Origin: Chloroflexota bacterium | GTDB lineage: Bacteria > Chloroflexota > Dehalococcoidia > Lucifugimonadales > UBA826 | Assembly (NCBI GenBank): GCA_003228105.1 | Contig: QGNN01000017.1 | Span: forward strand, 1-35,203 | Reading direction: 5' to 3' | Length of the DNA: 35,203 nucleotides | Shown: positions 3,108 to 35,203 of the stretch, in pieces | Layout of the letters: every line of letters starts with the position of its first letter | Position numbering within the stretch: position 1 is the first letter of the stretch | Translations under genes and position numbers: made by a program | Notes under the pieces: generated by a model | What the model was told of the DNA's origin: nothing | Seen by the model: the letters and a program-made list of their open reading frames with translations, nothing else | Database searches by the model: none

Positions 3108-3131
3108 TTGATTGCAAAGGGAGAAAAGGAA

Positions 3132-4217
3132 ATGAAAATACAGAGATTTGAAACTGGTGTCGTCAGCCTGCCTAGAGAGGAAGGCCCTCTGTCAGGAGGG
3201 GTTGGAAGTAGAGCAGAATTTATAACTATAAAGATCATTACCGATGACGGTATTGAGGGAATAGGCTACTCAGGGTTCGCGAGTTCAATAATGGTAAAGG
3301 CATTGAAAGAAACCGTTGATGCATTGCTTGAACAGATTATTGGAGAAGACCCCAGGCGAGTAGAACATATTAATACTTATCTGAGAAATCTGGCAGGAGG
3401 TGGGGCTCCGGCGGGCCTTGTGACGCGAGGAGTTTCAGGAATTGATGTTGCCCTATGGGATATTAAAGGTAAAGCTGCGTCAGAACCCGTACACAGATTA
3501 CTCGGAGGATTCAGAGATACTGTGCCAACTTATGCCAGCGGTTATTTATGGCGGACGTTCGACTTGGGCCGGTTAGAAAGTACAAGTAAAGAACTTGTAT
3601 CTCAGGGTTTCAAGGCGATGAAGTTTCGCATGGGAGCTGAAGATAGTGCTCAGAAAGAAATTGCTAGAATGGAAACGATGAGAAATTCGGTGGGTCCGGA
3701 CATTACTGTCATGCTGGACATCAATCAAGGCTGGGACGTCAACACCGCTATTTCCATAGGGAGAGAACTTGCAGCATATAATCTTTTTTGGCTAGAAGAC
3801 CCAATCAACCATCAGGATTTTGAGGGTTTATCCCGCATCGCCGATGCCCTAGACACGCCAATTGCAGCTGGAGAATACCATTACGGGGTAGAGCCATTTA
3901 GGACTCAATTAGAACGAAGATCAATCGATATTGTGATGGTAGATTTACTCAGGGTCGGAGGTATAACGCAATGGATGAAAGCAGCTCATCTTGCCGAGGC
4001 TTACAATTTACCAGTTGTCACACATTTGGCAACCGAGATTTTGATGCACTGTTTGGCTGCTTGCCCGAATGGTACATATGTGGAGCACATGCCATGGACC
4101 TTTGCCATGTTCAATGAGGAACCCGAGATTGTCGGAGGGGAAATTGTCTTACCCCAAACCCCTGGATTAGGACTGTCATTTAACGAAGATAATTTGCGAA
4201 AATTTGCGGTTTCTTGA
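3132..4217 (+). CDS. Enolase-superfamily (mandelate racemase/muconate lactonizing enzyme-like) protein 1
   Basis: GVSGIDVALWDIKGKAASEPVHRLLGG, MKFRMG (KxR on barrel strand 2), VMLDINQGW / FWLEDP / AAGEYHYG metal ligands, VVTHLATE His. ATG at 3132 with upstream purine-rich RBS. Confidence 0.9.
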   Translation: MKIQRFETGVVSLPREEGPLSGGVGSRAEFITIKIITDDGIEGIGYSGFASSIMVKALKETVDALLEQIIGEDPRRVEHINTYLRNLAGGGAPAGLVTRGVSGIDVALWDIKGKAASEPVHRLLGGFRDTVPTYASGYLWRTFDLGRLESTSKELVSQGFKAMKFRMGAEDSAQKEIARMETMRNSVGPDITVMLDINQGWDVNTAISIGRELAAYNLFWLEDPINHQDFEGLSRIADALDTPIAAGEYHYGVEPFRTQLERRSIDIVMVDLLRVGGITQWMKAAHLAEAYNLPVVTHLATEILMHCLAACPNGTYVEHMPWTFAMFNEEPEIVGGEIVLPQTPGLGLSFNEDNLRKFAVS

Positions 4218-4334: not shown

Positions 4335-6614
4335 TTGGCAACGCATACACCAACAAATTACAGCGTTATTGGAAAGAGACCTATCCGTCACGATGGAGCA
4401 GATAAAGTTACAGGAAAAGCTCAATATGGGGCGGATTTAAACCTACCTAGAATGTTATTTGGCAAGGTTTTACGAAGTCCGCACGCACATGCCCGTATTA
4501 AGTCGATAGATCTCTCTGCAGCCCTTGCTCACCCGGACGTCAAGGCTATAGTCACTTCCAGTGACTTATCTCCTTTGCCCGATAAACCTGCAGAGGTTGG
4601 TGAAGATCTATATGCGAATATGAAATATGTGAGAGATAGAATTTTAGCTTCTGATAAAGTTTTATTCAAAGGCCACCCCATAGCAGCCATCGCTGCTACT
4701 GGGCTTCATGACGCAGAAGAACTTTTATCTTTGATAAAAGTGGAATATGAAGTTCTGGAATCAGTGACAGATGTCGAATCTGCGATGGCTGAAAATGCTC
4801 CCATTCTCCATGACACTATTAAATTTGCCTCGATGTCAGGGAACGAAGTTCATAACTCCAACATTGCTAGTCACGACCAATACATACTCGGTGATATAGA
4901 TCAGGGGTTTAAAAAGGCAGACCTGACCATTGAAAGAGAATATCGCACTAAAACAGTTCATCAGGGTTATATCGAACCACAAAACGGTACAGCTTCCTGG
5001 AGATCAGATGGGCACGTTACTATTTGGTGCAGCAGCCAAGGACATTTTGGGATTAGAGATCAAGTCTCCACTGTACTAGGCATGCCTGTATCAAAAGTAA
5101 CTATAGTACCGATGGAAATCGGCGGCGGTTTCGGAGGGAAGCTTCCATGCTACTTGGAACCATTAGCCGCCCTTCTATCCAAAAAAACTGGCAACCCAGT
5201 TAAGATGTTCATGACACGATCCGAAGTTATTGAGGCATCTGGGCCAACATCTGGAAGTTTTGTTAGGGTGAAGATAGGTGTCACAAATGACGGAAAAATT
5301 ACTGCTGCCCAAGGTTATCTTGCTTTTGAAGCAGGAGCATTCCCAGGCTCTCCCATAGGAGGGGCTACAGCATGTATGCTTTCCCCTTATGACATCGAGA
5401 ATCTACAGTTGGATGGATATGATGTGGTCGACAACAAACCGAAAACTACAGCATATCGAGCGCCCGGGGCTCCAATAGGCGCCTTAGCGGTAGAAACTAT
5501 TATGGACGAGATCGCGGAGAAGCTAAAAATTGACCCTGTGGATCTGCGATTATTGAATGCTGCCAAGGAAGGAACGAGAAGATCAGACGGGGTTGTCAAC
5601 GGTAAAATTGGAATGATTGAGCTTTCGGAGATTGTAAAAAATCATGAGCATTACCAAACACCATTGGAAAAAGTTGGAGGTAAGTTAAAAGGAAGAGGGA
5701 TAGCTTTCGGGTACTGGAGAAATAACACCGGACCCGCGGCATGCGTTGCTACTGTTACACCGGATGGAGTAGTCAATCTATCCGAAGGTTCTGTTGATGT
5801 CGGAGGTTCCAGAACTGCAATATCACAGCAACTTGCCGAGGTTCTCTCCATACCTGTGGAAGACGTCAACCCACAAGTTGCAGATACTGATTCCATAGGA
5901 TATACATCAGTAACCGGTGGCAGTGGGGTTGCTTTCAAATCTGGGTGGGCTGCATTTGAAGCGGCACAAGAAGTTAAAAAAGAAATGTTAAAAAGAGCTA
6001 GTTTGGTATGGGACGCGAAGGAAGAGGAAATTGAATATACTAACGGAATTGCCCAACACAAATCCGATCCTGAGCTCAAACTGACTTTTAAGGAAATTGC
6101 AGCCGCTTCAAATGGGACAGGTGGACCCATTGTTGGTAGTGCCGGAGTCAACCCCAGCGGCGTCGGAGGATCATTCGCGGCAATGCTGGTAGACGTAGAA
6201 GTAGATGGGGAAACTGGCAAGACGACAATCCTTCGCTGCACTCCTTTCACCGACGTAGGCAAGGCAATTCATCCAGATTACGTGGAAGGCCAAATACAGG
6301 GAGGTACAGCACAAGGTATCGGCTGGGCTTTAAACGAGGAGTATTTTATGAGTGACGACGGTAAAGTCATGAATTCAAGTCTTTTAGATTACAGAATGCC
6401 CACAAGTTTGGACCTGCCCATGATAGATTCTGTGATCGTAGAGGTATTCAATCCTGGGCACCCTTTCGGTGTGAGAGGGGTAGGAGAATCCCCTCTAGTA
6501 CCATCGCTCGCTGCAATGGCCAATGCTGTATCTGATGCCATCGGAGTGAGAATGCGGGAATTACCAATGTCTCCTACAGCCGTAAAAAAGGCCATAGATG
6601 ACGCAAAACTTTAA
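4335..6614 (+). CDS. Xanthine-dehydrogenase family molybdopterin-binding large subunit (aldehyde oxidase/CoxL-like superfamily)
   Basis: 759 aa. IRHDGADKVTGKAQYGADLNLPRMLFGKVLRSPHAHARI, GGGFGGKL, TTAYRAPGAP active-site loop region, GVRGVGESP near the C-terminus. TTG start with GAAGGAG 7 nt upstream. Confidence 0.92.
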   Translation: MATHTPTNYSVIGKRPIRHDGADKVTGKAQYGADLNLPRMLFGKVLRSPHAHARIKSIDLSAALAHPDVKAIVTSSDLSPLPDKPAEVGEDLYANMKYVRDRILASDKVLFKGHPIAAIAATGLHDAEELLSLIKVEYEVLESVTDVESAMAENAPILHDTIKFASMSGNEVHNSNIASHDQYILGDIDQGFKKADLTIEREYRTKTVHQGYIEPQNGTASWRSDGHVTIWCSSQGHFGIRDQVSTVLGMPVSKVTIVPMEIGGGFGGKLPCYLEPLAALLSKKTGNPVKMFMTRSEVIEASGPTSGSFVRVKIGVTNDGKITAAQGYLAFEAGAFPGSPIGGATACMLSPYDIENLQLDGYDVVDNKPKTTAYRAPGAPIGALAVETIMDEIAEKLKIDPVDLRLLNAAKEGTRRSDGVVNGKIGMIELSEIVKNHEHYQTPLEKVGGKLKGRGIAFGYWRNNTGPAACVATVTPDGVVNLSEGSVDVGGSRTAISQQLAEVLSIPVEDVNPQVADTDSIGYTSVTGGSGVAFKSGWAAFEAAQEVKKEMLKRASLVWDAKEEEIEYTNGIAQHKSDPELKLTFKEIAAASNGTGGPIVGSAGVNPSGVGGSFAAMLVDVEVDGETGKTTILRCTPFTDVGKAIHPDYVEGQIQGGTAQGIGWALNEEYFMSDDGKVMNSSLLDYRMPTSLDLPMIDSVIVEVFNPGHPFGVRGVGESPLVPSLAAMANAVSDAIGVRMRELPMSPTAVKKAIDDAKL

Positions 6615-22538: not shown

Positions 22539-23822
22539 TTAAGGCTTGACGACACTCCCATCCGCCCTACGTACCGTGTCCCAAGCACCACCATAAGCTC
22601 TATCTTTGAAGGGGAATTTTGCCGCAAGCGCCTCATTAATATCAATACCCAGACCAGGAGACCCGTTAGGCCACATATATCCGTCTTTCACCTCGGGACA
22701 CCCAGGAAACACCTCTTTGCTATTGTCACCAAATATTGCGTATTCCTGAATCCCGAAATTAATAGTGTTTAGATCCAGCATAAGATTTGCGGAATGGCCC
22801 ACCGGGGAGGTATCACCTGGGCCATGCCAAGCCGTACGCACATTAAAAGCTTCGCACAAAGCTGCTAATTTCCTTGCAGGAGTGATTCCACCTATCTGGG
22901 ATATGTGGATCCTCAAAAAATCGATAAGTCGGTCTTTCACCATAGGAATAACTTCATGAGGGTTGTTGTAAAGTTCACCCATTGCTATTGGAGTACTGGT
23001 TTGATGCCTCACCATTTTGAAGTAATCGTTATCTTCAGGGGAAAATAGATCTTCCAGAAAATAAAGTTTGTACTGCTCAACTTCCTTAGCAAACCCAATC
23101 GCTTGGATCGGCGGTATCCGTTCGTGAACATCGTGAAGTATTTCAATATCCCAACCAACTTTTGACCTTATATATTCAAAAAGTCCCAACGCTGATTTCA
23201 TGTAGGGTCCAGGCTCAAATATTCCACCAGGGTGGGCATGTAAAGTATCTGGTAACGGCTCGAATATTCGATCAGTTCCCAATCTTGGGCCATATTTCGA
23301 GTAAGTAGATTCACCAGACGAACCTTTATTACCATATGTCACATAGCCTGGAGTAGCAACCTGGACACGAATATGGTGGAATCCTTCTTCCATATACATT
23401 CGCACATCATCCTCTACTTCCTGATATTCACTCCCATTCGCGTGAACATAAACAGCAGCTGAACTTCTAGCCTTCCCACCGAGCAAATCATAAACAGGCA
23501 TTCCTGCCAATTTACCCTTAATATCCCACAAAGCCTGGTCAATCCCACTTAAAGCGTTATTTAACACTGGCCCGTTTCGCCAGTAGGATGAAACGTAGGA
23601 AGATTGCCATATGTCTTCTATATCTGCTGGATCTTTGCCAATCAAAAATGGTTTTAAGTAATCCTCAACAGCTGCAAGCACCGCTGTCGGCCTTTGAGTA
23701 AAAGTCGCGCACCCTACCCCGTATATTTCTGGTTCGCTTGTCTCAATTTTTACTATCACTAGGCGAATATCGTCGGGCTCAGTAAATATGGTGCGAATGT
23801 TTCTGATTCTCAAGTTACTCAT
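22539..23822 (-). CDS. Enolase-superfamily protein 2, mannonate/gluconate dehydratase (ManD/RspA)-type
   Basis: 427 aa. SGIDQALWDIKGKLAGMPVYDLLGGKAR, HIRVQVATPGYVTYG, EILHDVHERIPP, YFLEDLFSPED, PIAMGELYNN, TAWHGPGDTSPVGHSANLMLDL, GSPGLGIDINEALAAKFPF. Confidence 0.9.
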   Translation of the reverse strand: MSNLRIRNIRTIFTEPDDIRLVIVKIETSEPEIYGVGCATFTQRPTAVLAAVEDYLKPFLIGKDPADIEDIWQSSYVSSYWRNGPVLNNALSGIDQALWDIKGKLAGMPVYDLLGGKARSSAAVYVHANGSEYQEVEDDVRMYMEEGFHHIRVQVATPGYVTYGNKGSSGESTYSKYGPRLGTDRIFEPLPDTLHAHPGGIFEPGPYMKSALGLFEYIRSKVGWDIEILHDVHERIPPIQAIGFAKEVEQYKLYFLEDLFSPEDNDYFKMVRHQTSTPIAMGELYNNPHEVIPMVKDRLIDFLRIHISQIGGITPARKLAALCEAFNVRTAWHGPGDTSPVGHSANLMLDLNTINFGIQEYAIFGDNSKEVFPGCPEVKDGYMWPNGSPGLGIDINEALAAKFPFKDRAYGGAWDTVRRADGSVVKP

Positions 23823-26212: not shown

Positions 26213-27346
26213 ATGAAAATAACGTCTGTTGAAATATCTGTCTTTGAGCTTCCCATGTACCCGATCGTCACACAAGTCGTGCCAGTGGGAAATCCCTCAG
26301 AACTAAGGTGGCAACAAGCTTTTCCTAAAGGTGGACCGGTTCCCGTACAGGTTATGCAAGTTATGACTGACGAAGGTATCCATGGAATTTGTACTGTAGG
26401 GGATTGGAGATATACCGAACTAACATGGAGACAAATAGCACAACTGAGAGAACTAGTAGTCGGAGAAAATCCTCTCGGAAGAGATCACCTTTTATCTAAA
26501 CTAAAATCAGTAAGCCGTTTTTTTGAACCGGGTTGGTATGGAGGATTTGATAACTGCCTTTGGGATATAGAAGGAAAGGTCAAAAATTTACCTGTATCTG
26601 AACTACTTGGCGGAGCAAAGGGCAAAATACAAGCCTATTACAACACTACCGGGGTCACTCCCGAAGAACTGCTCCTTGATGGAGAAGCCGGAATTGAGGC
26701 GGGATTCACGGCACTAAAAGATCATCTTCCATTTGGTGTCGAGAAAAACATAGAGACGTTTAAAGCATTTAGAAAAGTATTTGGTGACAGTATAGGTTTA
26801 ATGCATGACGCAGCTTTGGTGAATTACACTTTCGACGAAGCTCTAGAAATCGGGAAGGAATTGGAAGACCTAAATTTCATATGGCTTGAAGAACCTTTAC
26901 CAGACCGCCATCATGAAGATTATGTAAATTTATGTCAGCAACTAAAAATACCTGTTGCTGGAGCTGAGACTCTTATGAATGAACCAGAAATCAGCCAGCT
27001 GTGGTTGAAAACAGGTGCAATTGATATTCTCAGAGTAAATGGCAGACATGGAACAACCCCCATTCTGAATGCATCCAAATTCGCAGCCCAATTGAATACA
27101 ACTGTTGAACCTAATGCCTATGGCCCTCTTTTTGGCATAGTTCATGCACATATTAATTGCGGAATTTCAAACATAGATTGGTTTGAGAATGCCCCTCCCG
27201 CAAGAGGAGCTGAATTGGGTGAGGAAATAGGTTTACTTAACCCCATTAGACCTGTATCTGGATGGGTAACCCCGCCATCAGGACCCGGTTGGGGTTCAGA
27301 ATGGGATTGGAATCAATTCGAAAAGAAAAGGATAGCTGTTATTTAA
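26213..27346 (+). CDS. Enolase-superfamily (mandelate racemase-like) protein 3, divergent active site
   Basis: WYGGFDNCLWDIEGKVKNLPVSELLGG, ALKDHLPFG, GLMHDAALVNYTFDEAL, FIWLEEPLPD, VAGAETLM, and a C-terminal PPSGPGWGSEWDWNQ tail. Confidence 0.88.
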   Translation: MKITSVEISVFELPMYPIVTQVVPVGNPSELRWQQAFPKGGPVPVQVMQVMTDEGIHGICTVGDWRYTELTWRQIAQLRELVVGENPLGRDHLLSKLKSVSRFFEPGWYGGFDNCLWDIEGKVKNLPVSELLGGAKGKIQAYYNTTGVTPEELLLDGEAGIEAGFTALKDHLPFGVEKNIETFKAFRKVFGDSIGLMHDAALVNYTFDEALEIGKELEDLNFIWLEEPLPDRHHEDYVNLCQQLKIPVAGAETLMNEPEISQLWLKTGAIDILRVNGRHGTTPILNASKFAAQLNTTVEPNAYGPLFGIVHAHINCGISNIDWFENAPPARGAELGEEIGLLNPIRPVSGWVTPPSGPGWGSEWDWNQFEKKRIAVI

Positions 27347-27358
27347 CCTACGGTCACC

Positions 27359-28504
27359 CTAGAAAAATTCAGTGTAAGGTTCAGAATCTACTGGCGTGTA
27401 ATCAGATGGTGGAAACTCCTTTAGGGCCTCTTCATTTATGTCCGTCCCCCACCCTGGACCGACTGGAGGGGTGGCAAAGCCTTTGTGAATTGGAATCTGA
27501 TTCGTCAATATAGCTTCATATCTGGCCAAAAAACTCACAAATATCTCTTGTTTGAAACAGTTAGGAATATTCATATCCAAATGAAGGCTTGCTGCGGTCG
27601 ATATTGGGCCGTTGGAATTATGCGGTGCCACACTAACATATTGTGTTTCTGCGGCAGAGGCTATTTTTCTAAGTTCCGAAATTCCTCCAGCGTGACATAT
27701 ATCTGGCTGGATAATAGAAATAGCTTTTTCATCTAGCAATGGTTGGAAATCCCAACGGTTGTACAGCTGTTCACCAGTTGATACCGGGATCCTAGATTTT
27801 CTTGCAAATTCGCCCATCAACTTTGGATTATCAAACTGTATCGGCTCCTCAATCCAGGAGATCTTATAAGGGATAAGTTCTTCGGCAACTTGCAAGGCAC
27901 TCCAAAAATCCAATCTAGCCCTGACATCGATTCCTATCTGTATATCTGGTCCAATCGCATCTCTTACAGCCTTTACTAACTCAACTCCCTTTTTTATTCT
28001 CTCAAGAGTAGTTACATATTGACCTTTGAATGGATAAAACTTTAGGCATGGATACCCCGATTGCACTGTTTGTACAGCCGCCTCGGCGTGGTCTTTAGGG
28101 GTAACAGCATTCTCAAACCAGCCATTTGCGTATAATGGGACGGCATCCCGAACTTTCCCACCTAACAATTCGTACACCGGTACTCCTAGGGCCTTACCTT
28201 TTAAATCCCATAACGCTAGATCTATAGCACTTATAGCACTCATAGTTACCGCACCACCCGTCCATGTCACTCTTCGATACAAGGATGTCCAAATAAATTC
28301 GATCGCGAAAGGGTCTTTTCCAATCAGAAATTTGGAAAAATCTTCGATTTCTGCTGTGAGGCCTAGATCTTTGTATTGAAGACTACCCTCACCTACACCG
28401 TAAATACCTGTGTCAGTATAAATTTTCAGGAACAACCAGTTGTTCGCGTCTGATTTATGTGGGGTTGCAGACATATGAAATGTTTTAATTTCTGTGATTT
28501 TCAA
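27359..28504 (-). CDS. Enolase-superfamily protein 4, galactonate-dehydratase-like
   Basis: MSAISAIDLALWDLKGKALGVPVYELLGGKVRDAVPLYANG, CLKFYPF, IGIDVRARLDFWSAL, SWIEEPI, STGEQLYNRWDF, VAPHNSNGPISTAASLHLD, TPPVGPGWGTDINEE. Confidence 0.9.
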   Translation of the reverse strand: MKITEIKTFHMSATPHKSDANNWLFLKIYTDTGIYGVGEGSLQYKDLGLTAEIEDFSKFLIGKDPFAIEFIWTSLYRRVTWTGGAVTMSAISAIDLALWDLKGKALGVPVYELLGGKVRDAVPLYANGWFENAVTPKDHAEAAVQTVQSGYPCLKFYPFKGQYVTTLERIKKGVELVKAVRDAIGPDIQIGIDVRARLDFWSALQVAEELIPYKISWIEEPIQFDNPKLMGEFARKSRIPVSTGEQLYNRWDFQPLLDEKAISIIQPDICHAGGISELRKIASAAETQYVSVAPHNSNGPISTAASLHLDMNIPNCFKQEIFVSFLARYEAILTNQIPIHKGFATPPVGPGWGTDINEEALKEFPPSDYTPVDSEPYTEFF

Positions 28505-32174: not shown

Positions 32175-35100
32175 ATGCAAATTAGAAGAATCGGTCGATA
32201 CCAACTTCTTGAGATCGTTGGGAAAGGCGGTCAAGGAACCGTTTATCGTGGACACGACCCTTCCACCGGTCAGATAGTTGCGGTCAAAATTCTTGCCGAA
32301 GAACACAGTGATGGTGACTTCCTCGAGAGGTTCCAGCGAGAAGCCTCAATTCTTGCATCCCTTGAACATCCACATGTTATAAAGGTGTTCGATCACGGTG
32401 AAGAAGAGGGCCGGCATTTTATAGTCACCGAATACGTCCCCGAGAACTTAGCTCGAATAATTGAGCAAGGTGATCCACTTCCAATAAGAAGAGGCTTAAC
32501 AGTCGCGGCTCAAATCGCCTCGGCTTTAGCAGTAACACATGAAAACGGTGTGACCCATCGAGATGTTAAGCCAGCAAACGTTCTAATTTCTGATTCCGGA
32601 GACGTGAAATTAACTGATTTTGGAATCGCCACCGCTGATGTGATGACAACTGTAACCACTCCTGACGCAACGGTTGGAACTCCGCTGTATATGTCGCCAG
32701 AACAAATTCAAAGTCGTGACATAGATGGCAGGTCTGATATTTATTCGCTTGGCTGTCTGCTTTACCAAATTCTCACCGGAAGGTCTCCTTTCCAAGGAGA
32801 AAGTGCCTACGACATATTCAATGCCCATATGAACGGTGAGTACGAACCTCTCTCTAAGGTTATAGAAGACTGTCCAGAAGAACTAGACAATCTCCTCAGC
32901 AAAGCTTTAGAGAAAAGTCTAAACGACAGGTTTCAATCGGCCGATGAATTCATGAACGCTATTCATAACGTTGCAGATCAGCTACCAGATACCGGTGATC
33001 AAACATTAGCAACCAGGGTTATGCCTAGGACAATAAGATCATTGTCTAGACGTAATTCTATTTGGAAAAGAAAAAACACATGGGTGACAGGAGTTGCCGC
33101 TGTAGCCGTTTTGGCTATCATTGGATTCGCTGCCACCACAATGTTGAGAGGGGGGTCTGCCGTCGGTCTGGCAACAGGTATGACGGATGCAGCAGAATCC
33201 TCTTTGGTGCCTCAAGCCTCAATTATAATACCTGAAGAACCCGAATTGGCCGCTGATCTACCAATCGCAGAAAATGTCGTTTTTTCTTCCGGCCCCAATC
33301 CTGACTACCTATACGCACAAATCTCGATTCCAGCTGTTGCTGATGTAGGTCACCTATCCAATATCTCTGCCTCTACAAGAGACTTTGACGGTAATGAGGC
33401 AAAGTTGAACGTAGAAAGTGTAAAAACAGATGGATTAAGGGCGCCTCTAAACGTTATTTTCCTTAGAGCAATGGAAATAACCGTTGATGCGGGTGAAGTT
33501 GTTACAGACACTTTACCGGGCATAATTGAGTTCCAAGTCAAAAGACAATGGATAGAAGAAGCCGGAATCCAAAAAAATGATATCAGCCTTTACCGATTCA
33601 AAGATGAGTGGCAGAGTTTGCCAACAATACATGAAGGTTCGTTTATTGGATCTGAAGATTTATTTTACGAAAGATTTTCAGCCAAAACTCCAGGGTTTTC
33701 TAGATTCGCCATAGGCCTAATCCTTCAAACTCAAGATGTTCAGTCTATTGAACCTGATTTAAGCAAAGAGGCTGCTTCCCCACAACAACCTCCAGCTGTT
33801 CCGCTTATACAACCTTCAAGAACCCAATCAGCCAACGAATTTCCGACTCCTACGCCCCTTGCAATAGTTGGTTTACAGACAACTAAAGTCCCAACACCAG
33901 AACCTCTGACTCCCCAATCAGTGCCGACACCGATCCCAGCCGTTGTAACACCTCAGATCCCTGTAGAGGCACCATCAACACAAAAACCACTCCCTACAGC
34001 TACTCCCATACCTCCAACACAAGTTCCTACCCCAACACGAGTCCCTCCAACATCGACTCCTACCCCGAGCCCCACACCTATCATTACCGAAAAAGTGAAA
34101 GACGGGTCTTTAATTCAATTGTCGACTATCCAACCAGCTAATATCGAATATCCAGGGGACGTTGATGAATGGATATATGTTCCAAGTTCCTCCATGATCG
34201 GCAAGTCCGTAAACATTTCAGTAATCACTGATAATCCTGACTCAGATGGGTATTTGGAATTCCTATCACCTTCAGGCGATGTCGTTGAGGAAGATGACGA
34301 CAGCGGATTCAACCTGAATCCTTTTATCAGCAACGCATTATTATCTGAAAGCGGGGTCTACACCATACGGTTAATGTTCTTAGACGGAACCTCAGGAGGT
34401 TACACACTTCAGATAGAACCGATGGACCTTACTCTGCAGACTTCTACAGCCACCCCAACACCTGTTGTAACCTCTACAATGACACCAGCTAGTTCCCAAA
34501 CTCCTATAGCCTCAACTTTGATCGGATATTGGGAATTTAACAATTCTGGCACCTCTTCCTGGGGACAAAGGCAATTTTCATTGGCGAACACTTCCTATCA
34601 CGAAGACAGTCTGTATTTGAATGGAAATTATGAATCTCACGAAAATGGATATACAGCCGAGGTGGAAATTTCTGACTGGAACCCCGAACAGTATACCGGT
34701 TCAATTGACTTTTTGATTCACCCTGAAAGTGACCTACAATACATGCCGATTTTGGTATCTGCAGATTGTCCTGGCAAGATTATAGTTAGCTTAAAAGAAG
34801 GTAGGTTGAATTTACTATTGGGAAATCAGCCATTTGGTGAGGAATATGAACTGGAATTTTCTGACTACGATCTGGAACTGGCTAAAAACACCTGGTACAA
34901 CCTCACAGTTTCTGCAGATTTCATCGATGAAAAAAGGATTAAAGCATACATAGGGGAATTTTTAGCTATTGATGAGTCTATTCCCGATGAAGCTCTATTA
35001 AATCCACCCTGCGATTACCCGTCATGGTCTGAGAGTGCCACTAAATACATATCATTTAACAACCATAACAACGCTACAGCTTTCCATGGTTTAATAGACA

Positions 35101-35203
35101 ATTTGAAAATACATAACGGGATAGTAGGGCCATCTGGAAATCCTAATTTCTCCACAAAATTAGACGCCCAATCCACTCCGACTGTAACTCCGACTATGAC
35201 TCC
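32175..35203 (+). CDS. Transmembrane Ser/Thr protein kinase with large multidomain ectodomain; 3' end outside window
   Basis: My translation from ATG 32175 is open to the window end. MQIRRIGRYQLLEIVGKGGQGTVYRGHD, VAVKIL, THRDVKPANVLIS, LTDFGIA, GTPLYMSPEQ, DIYSLGCLLYQILTG; TM segment WVTGVAAVAVLAIIGFAATTML; then the ectodomain. Absent from the ORF track because no stop falls inside the window. Confidence 0.95.
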   Translation, partial: MQIRRIGRYQLLEIVGKGGQGTVYRGHDPSTGQIVAVKILAEEHSDGDFLERFQREASILASLEHPHVIKVFDHGEEEGRHFIVTEYVPENLARIIEQGDPLPIRRGLTVAAQIASALAVTHENGVTHRDVKPANVLISDSGDVKLTDFGIATADVMTTVTTPDATVGTPLYMSPEQIQSRDIDGRSDIYSLGCLLYQILTGRSPFQGESAYDIFNAHMNGEYEPLSKVIEDCPEELDNLLSKALEKSLNDRFQSADEFMNAIHNVADQLPDTGDQTLATRVMPRTIRSLSRRNSIWKRKNTWVTGVAAVAVLAIIGFAATTMLRGGSAVGLATGMTDAAESSLVPQASIIIPEEPELAADLPIAENVVFSSGPNPDYLYAQISIPAVADVGHLSNISASTRDFDGNEAKLNVESVKTDGLRAPLNVIFLRAMEITVDAGEVVTDTLPGIIEFQVKRQWIEEAGIQKNDISLYRFKDEWQSLPTIHEGSFIGSEDLFYERFSAKTPGFSRFAIGLILQTQDVQSIEPDLSKEAASPQQPPAVPLIQPSRTQSANEFPTPTPLAIVGLQTTKVPTPEPLTPQSVPTPIPAVVTPQIPVEAPSTQKPLPTATPIPPTQVPTPTRVPPTSTPTPSPTPIITEKVKDGSLIQLSTIQPANIEYPGDVDEWIYVPSSSMIGKSVNISVITDNPDSDGYLEFLSPSGDVVEEDDDSGFNLNPFISNALLSESGVYTIRLMFLDGTSGGYTLQIEPMDLTLQTSTATPTPVVTSTMTPASSQTPIASTLIGYWEFNNSGTSSWGQRQFSLANTSYHEDSLYLNGNYESHENGYTAEVEISDWNPEQYTGSIDFLIHPESDLQYMPILVSADCPGKIIVSLKEGRLNLLLGNQPFGEEYELEFSDYDLELAKNTWYNLTVSADFIDEKRIKAYIGEFLAIDESIPDEALLNPPCDYPSWSESATKYISFNNHNNATAFHGLIDNLKIHNGIVGPSGNPNFSTKLDAQSTPTVTPTMT
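33844..34086 (+). repeat. Low-complexity Pro/Thr-encoding stalk within the kinase gene
   Basis: Translates to TPTPLAIVGLQTTKVPTPEPLTPQSVPTPIPAVVTP...TPIPPTQVPTPTRVPPTSTPTPSPTPI. Shorter copies of the same type occur at about 34440-34510 and from about 35170 to the window end. Confidence 0.85.

Follow-up and report, generated by a model that had tools for sequence, protein, structure and literature searches.

Among the receptor kinases described so far, the PASTA kinases (PknB, Stk1, StkP and PrkC) are the closest to the protein reported here, which is encoded at one end of a 35,203-nucleotide stretch of DNA from a Chloroflexota bacterium (the window, meaning the whole stretch that was analysed). 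They constitute the nearest kinase group and share with it the order kinase, transmembrane segment (TM) and ectodomain, but the window kinase is devoid of PASTA and carries instead a PGF-pre-PGF domain followed by PPC-like and LamG-like modules. Propeller and repeat receptor kinases, for example the NHL-repeat protein PknD of M. tuberculosis, resemble it in being laid out as receptors whose extracellular part is a folded module; in the present case, however, a single membrane-side domain is shared, and it is the distal modules that differ from kinase to kinase within one bacterial order. The PGF-pre-PGF domain is, by profile, that of archaeal surface proteins (TIGR04213 / IPR026453). The archaeal members are named for the PGF-CTERM anchor located after the domain, whereas in the window protein a kinase and a TM precede it. 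The likeness to plant receptor-like kinases is limited to the way they work, as they combine a conserved kinase with diversified ectodomains that include LRR and lectin-like modules; their ectodomain is N-terminal (the opposite polarity) and their kinase belongs to a different family.

SAR202 bacteria are abundant in the deep ocean, but little work has addressed how they perceive their environment. Passages of a survey of prokaryotic kinase architectures name NHL, WD, LRR, PQQ, PASTA and other partners, and PGF-pre-PGF does not appear among them (PMC1262709).

Domain organization of the window kinase

The window corresponds to one whole contig (G000:C17) and its last gene is interrupted by the contig end. 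The features of this gene are as follows.

32175-35201, + strand: receptor Ser/Thr kinase gene, first 1009 codons, with an ATG start and open at the contig end
32199-32948, + strand: Hanks-type (PknB-like) kinase domain with intact catalytic motifs (PF00069, E 3.2e-57, aa 9-258)
33000-33089, + strand: basic cytoplasmic juxtamembrane segment (8 K/R and 0 D/E in 31 residues)
33090-33146, + strand: single transmembrane helix (aa 306-324), N-in/C-out by hydropathy and the positive-inside rule
33246-33719, + strand: PGF-pre-PGF domain (TIGR04213 match at 33465-33713; N-terminal half from the family alignments A1 and A2)
33720-34100, + strand: Thr/Pro-rich stalk (25% Pro and 17% Thr at aa 516-642)
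34101-34430, + strand: PPC-like module (36% identity to the L068 PPC, 42% to the L043 module)
34431-34508, + strand: second Thr/Pro linker (35% Thr, 15% Pro)
34509-35123, + strand: LamG/concanavalin-like module (33% identity to the L049 module)

The kinase domain is complete, as the initial annotation had proposed; the PF00069 match is accompanied by the expected motifs: the Gly loop (aa 16), VAVK (35-38), HRDVKPAN (128), DFG (148) and SPEQ (174). It is an RD kinase with a Thr-rich activation loop, VMTTVTTPDATVGT, and the catalytic motifs are intact in nearly all kinases of the group. Its closest relative in the PDB is PknB (E 5e-53), and the NF033483 model scored 312.9 bits over this part, under its cut-off of 450. 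The computed membrane helix falls within the single TM first placed at about 33081-33155. While the segment preceding it is basic, the 31 residues that follow contain 0 K/R and 5 D/E; this charge bias places the kinase inside and the C-terminal part outside, in support of the receptor topology suggested previously.

The first ectodomain module had been noted for its resemblance to the PGF-pre-PGF family, an assignment sustained by NCBIfam TIGR04213 (aa 431-513; E 6e-15), with 55.5 bits over a curated cut-off of 28. A model of the domain was beta-rich, with a pLDDT of about 74-86 over most of its second half and 62.6 for the model, and as for all the structure models it was built from window and related-locus sequences only, which gave shallow alignments. 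The PGF-pre-PGF profile had no significant match in the PDB, and a Foldseek search with the same model (pLDDT 62.6) produced none at E 0.001, with loose immunoglobulin-like matches only. A kinship with GAIN/GPS-type juxtamembrane domains was also considered, an idea that gained no support from the fold search. With regard to surface anchoring, no exosortase/archaeosortase-type protein (PF09721) was detected in the window's genome or genus, and 6 of 60 relatives gave weak matches.

The identity of the two distal modules was supported through their homologs and not by their own scores. Evaluated alone, the PPC-like module reached 15.2 bits with PF04151, under the gathering cut-off of 25.9, but its homolog in L068 passes that cut-off with 35.6 bits. 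Likewise, the LamG-like module alone scored 18.4 bits with PF13385 (Laminin_G_3), under the gathering cut-off of 27.6, but the L049 module, with which it shares 33% identity over about 200 aa (BLAST E 1e-23), passes with 41.5 bits. The names PPC-like and LamG-like are used here on the basis of sequence likeness, and membership in PF04151 or PF13385 is not claimed. A two-sequence AlphaFold model of the LamG-like module had a pLDDT of 29.7, and the sole match of its profile (alignment A5) in the PDB was at E 0.94. The Pro/Thr composition of the segments that separate the modules agrees with the TP-rich stalks reported earlier.

Following the open reading frame from 32175 toward its stop, as had been recommended, the remainder of the gene was located on contig G000:C48 (positions 1-1461). 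This part encodes about 482 further residues with 93% identity to the C-terminal half of L005, and TPTMT is common to both contig ends. If no repeat is hidden in the gap, the completed kinase would have about 1,490 aa. The added part contains two modules that look PPC-like (one with 20.9 bits, below the cut-off) and then a C-terminal domain ending WWLGAPGITDFSNAPPQ, which has a counterpart in L068; the tail of the completed protein is without a C-terminal TM. The neighbors of the window kinase and of L004/L005 include a pentapeptide-repeat protein, an AMP-dependent ligase and a zinc-ribbon membrane protein (downstream), and the flanking genes are conserved in the close relatives, which are MAGs labelled as SAR202 cluster bacterium and Dehalococcoidia.

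Recurrence of the architecture and exchange of modules

The combination kinase, TM and PGF-pre-PGF was found in 23 ORFs from 19 genomes of the same order, in every case with the TM between the two domains; this count is based on an HMM built here, and 18 of the 23 exceed the curated TIGR04213 cut-off. The genomes span five families (f1, f23, f28, f29 and f39). The distance from the TM to the PGF-pre-PGF domain is 40-125 aa in 16 of the 23 kinases and 256-425 aa in the other 7. Conversely, the non-kinase PGF-pre-PGF proteins of the order mostly have a C-terminal TM helix, located after the domain. The rest of the ectodomain is variable: RCC1 in L043 (233.6 bits, beyond an 85-N gap), Kelch and Fn3 in L095 (Pfam), LRR, LamG and Kelch in L049 (with the kinase part on another contig), PD40/TolB, Big_5 and PPC in L068 (Pfam), and Big_13 in both L044 and L112 (Pfam), while L041 ends directly after PGF-pre-PGF. 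The architecture is a real, recurring and lineage-specific type of receptor kinase. The initial annotation had pointed to no earlier description of this combination; no description of kinases with PGF-pre-PGF, let alone of many of them, was found in the literature searched (subscription journals and database annotations lay outside the search), but the combination is not unique to the window, as it recurs across the five families.

The PGF-pre-PGF domain was detected in 45 of 250 genomes of the order and in 3 of 400 genomes of a phylum-wide Chloroflexota sample, the window genome included, so that a general occurrence in Chloroflexota was ruled out. The only matches in the control set came from Haloferax and Methanosarcina. 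This agrees with the mainly archaeal distribution attributed to the family at the outset and with an InterPro count table in which the domain is present for methanogens and ANME (PMC5244752). No relatives were found among viral contigs.

In the PGF-domain tree, which has 150 columns and long branches and provides moderate evidence, at least three changes of the kinase label are needed to account for the starred branches, and the kinase-linked domains fall in two well-separated parts. In the kinase tree, on the other hand, in which some of the kinases labelled "no PGF" are only truncated by contig ends, the window and L044 groups are adjacent. The separation of the domain branches as opposed to the neighboring position of the kinases points to domain exchange, and suggests that PGF-pre-PGF may have been joined to, or swapped onto, kinases more than once.

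Some loci deserve separate mention. L062 (G042) and L100 (G517) have nearly the same PGF-pre-PGF domain, on short branches, even though their genomes are filed under families f28 and f29, respectively; this likeness may reflect a recent transfer, contamination or misplacement. L043 and L068 contain a cytoplasmic SPFH/Band-7-like region between the kinase and the TM (Band_7 with 20.8 bits in L043, just under the cut-off). This pairing is unusual and might place these kinases in membrane microdomains. In L091 (4930-10719, G526:C66) a kinase-TM ORF ends at an in-frame stop (6133-6135), after which a second ORF, without a change of frame, encodes PGF-pre-PGF, FG-GAP and NHL repeats; this arrangement could represent a recent break, a sequencing error or a two-protein version.

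Cell envelope and proposed function

PASTA, the ectodomain with which bacterial kinases usually sense the wall, was absent from all 60 relatives and from the window protein; across the class, 120 of 294 genomes carry it, and the matches listed all lie outside this order. The PGF-pre-PGF kinases, of which related bacteria have many, thus seem to occupy the position that wall-sensing kinases hold in other bacteria. FtsW/RodA was found in none of 30 relatives and a PBP transpeptidase in two of 30. It has been reported that the class lost peptidoglycan ahead of its marine radiation and that SAR202 bacteria have S-layers and archaella (PMC10284905, PMC11994032, PMC10444878). The initial annotation had suggested a polysaccharide or cell-wall ligand. 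Because the relatives searched lack FtsW/RodA, almost all of them lack a PBP transpeptidase, and an S-layer with no peptidoglycan has been reported for SAR202, a wall ligand would correspond to the S-layer or a surface glycan and not to murein. The two PBP transpeptidases (G003:C151, 1207-1968, and G023:C25, 1839-2612) occur in genomes without FtsW/RodA and may represent contamination or a non-murein enzyme.

PP2C genes are located close beside kinase genes in G002-G005, and in relatives a PP2C gene lies close upstream of the PGF-type kinase. In the window's genome a PP2C phosphatase gene (L129, 4677-4922) is cut by the end of contig G000:C18. Given this truncated gene, the idea of a single kinase in this genome was abandoned, and a second PGF-type kinase is probably present within an assembly gap.

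Based on the features seen in its sequence, the window protein is somewhat likely to be a transmembrane receptor kinase that responds to surface or extracellular ligands, in a SAR202-type bacterium that has an S-layer and no peptidoglycan. The distal modules would recognize either part of the cell surface (an S-layer glycoprotein or a surface glycan) or an extracellular polymer, and ligand binding or clustering would pair two kinase domains, which may then phosphorylate each other's activation loop (VMTTVTTPDATVGT) and transmit the signal to cytoplasmic substrates; a PP2C-type phosphatase would probably turn the signal off. PGF-pre-PGF may act as a constant coupling piece at the membrane side, on which binding modules have been exchanged during evolution. 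Against the receptor reading, PPC and LamG are often plain surface or adhesion modules; against a constant membrane-side role, the nearness of PGF-pre-PGF to the membrane is not universal, considering the 7 of 23 kinases with the longer gap. If the receptor reading is correct, it would name a receptor family for testing and provide a function-linked setting for PGF-pre-PGF.

A more tentative evolutionary proposal, which we consider possible though doubtful, is that a wall-sensing PASTA kinase was re-tooled in bacteria that had lost peptidoglycan but retained an S-layer, its ectodomain being replaced more than once by the archaeal-type PGF-pre-PGF domain. This domain would be a universal adaptor at the membrane side, to which lectin, propeller and repeat modules can be attached interchangeably, and the outcome would be order-wide receptors of the S-layer or surface glycans. 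If so, this would illustrate how a core wall-sensing kinase adapted after wall loss, beside other archaeal-type traits such as archaella.

Alternatively, the protein could be a nutrient or particle receptor in which LamG and PPC bind extracellular polysaccharide or other organic matter and uptake or catabolism is adjusted through the kinase, as opposed to a response to the state of the cell's own surface. The lectin-like character of the LamG-like module, the variable distal modules, which suggest varied external ligands, and the abundance of catabolic genes near the window kinase, four of the enolase superfamily included, are in line with this possibility; nevertheless, the genes next to the kinase encode neither a transporter nor a CAZyme in the window, L004 or L005, and we regard this possibility as unlikely. 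Less likely still is an adhesin or tether, whose ectodomain would mainly hold neighboring cells or the S-layer while control of the kinase comes from within the cell. Such a role would be in keeping with the long Thr/Pro stalks and the adhesion-type modules, and the SPFH-like cytoplasmic region of L043 and L068 makes an inside input possible, but the recurring kinase-TM-ectodomain fusion with intact motifs fits sensing better and L041 has no adhesive module. Lastly, although Thr/Pro repeats often coincide with contig breaks (window, L003, L004 and L005), it is extremely improbable that assembly or gene calling joined unrelated genes, since several independent MAGs and distant families show the identical module order, unbroken, which argues that the arrangement is not due to chance, and the neighboring genes are conserved.

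Regarding other genes of the window, its chaperonin was considered as possibly archaeal and this was rejected, as it is an ordinary GroEL. Four mandelate-racemase/enolase-superfamily genes are encoded at 3108-4217, 22539-23822, 26213-27346 and 27359-28504, which fits the description of SAR202, a cultured genome of which contains 80 enolase-superfamily genes (PMC10444878).
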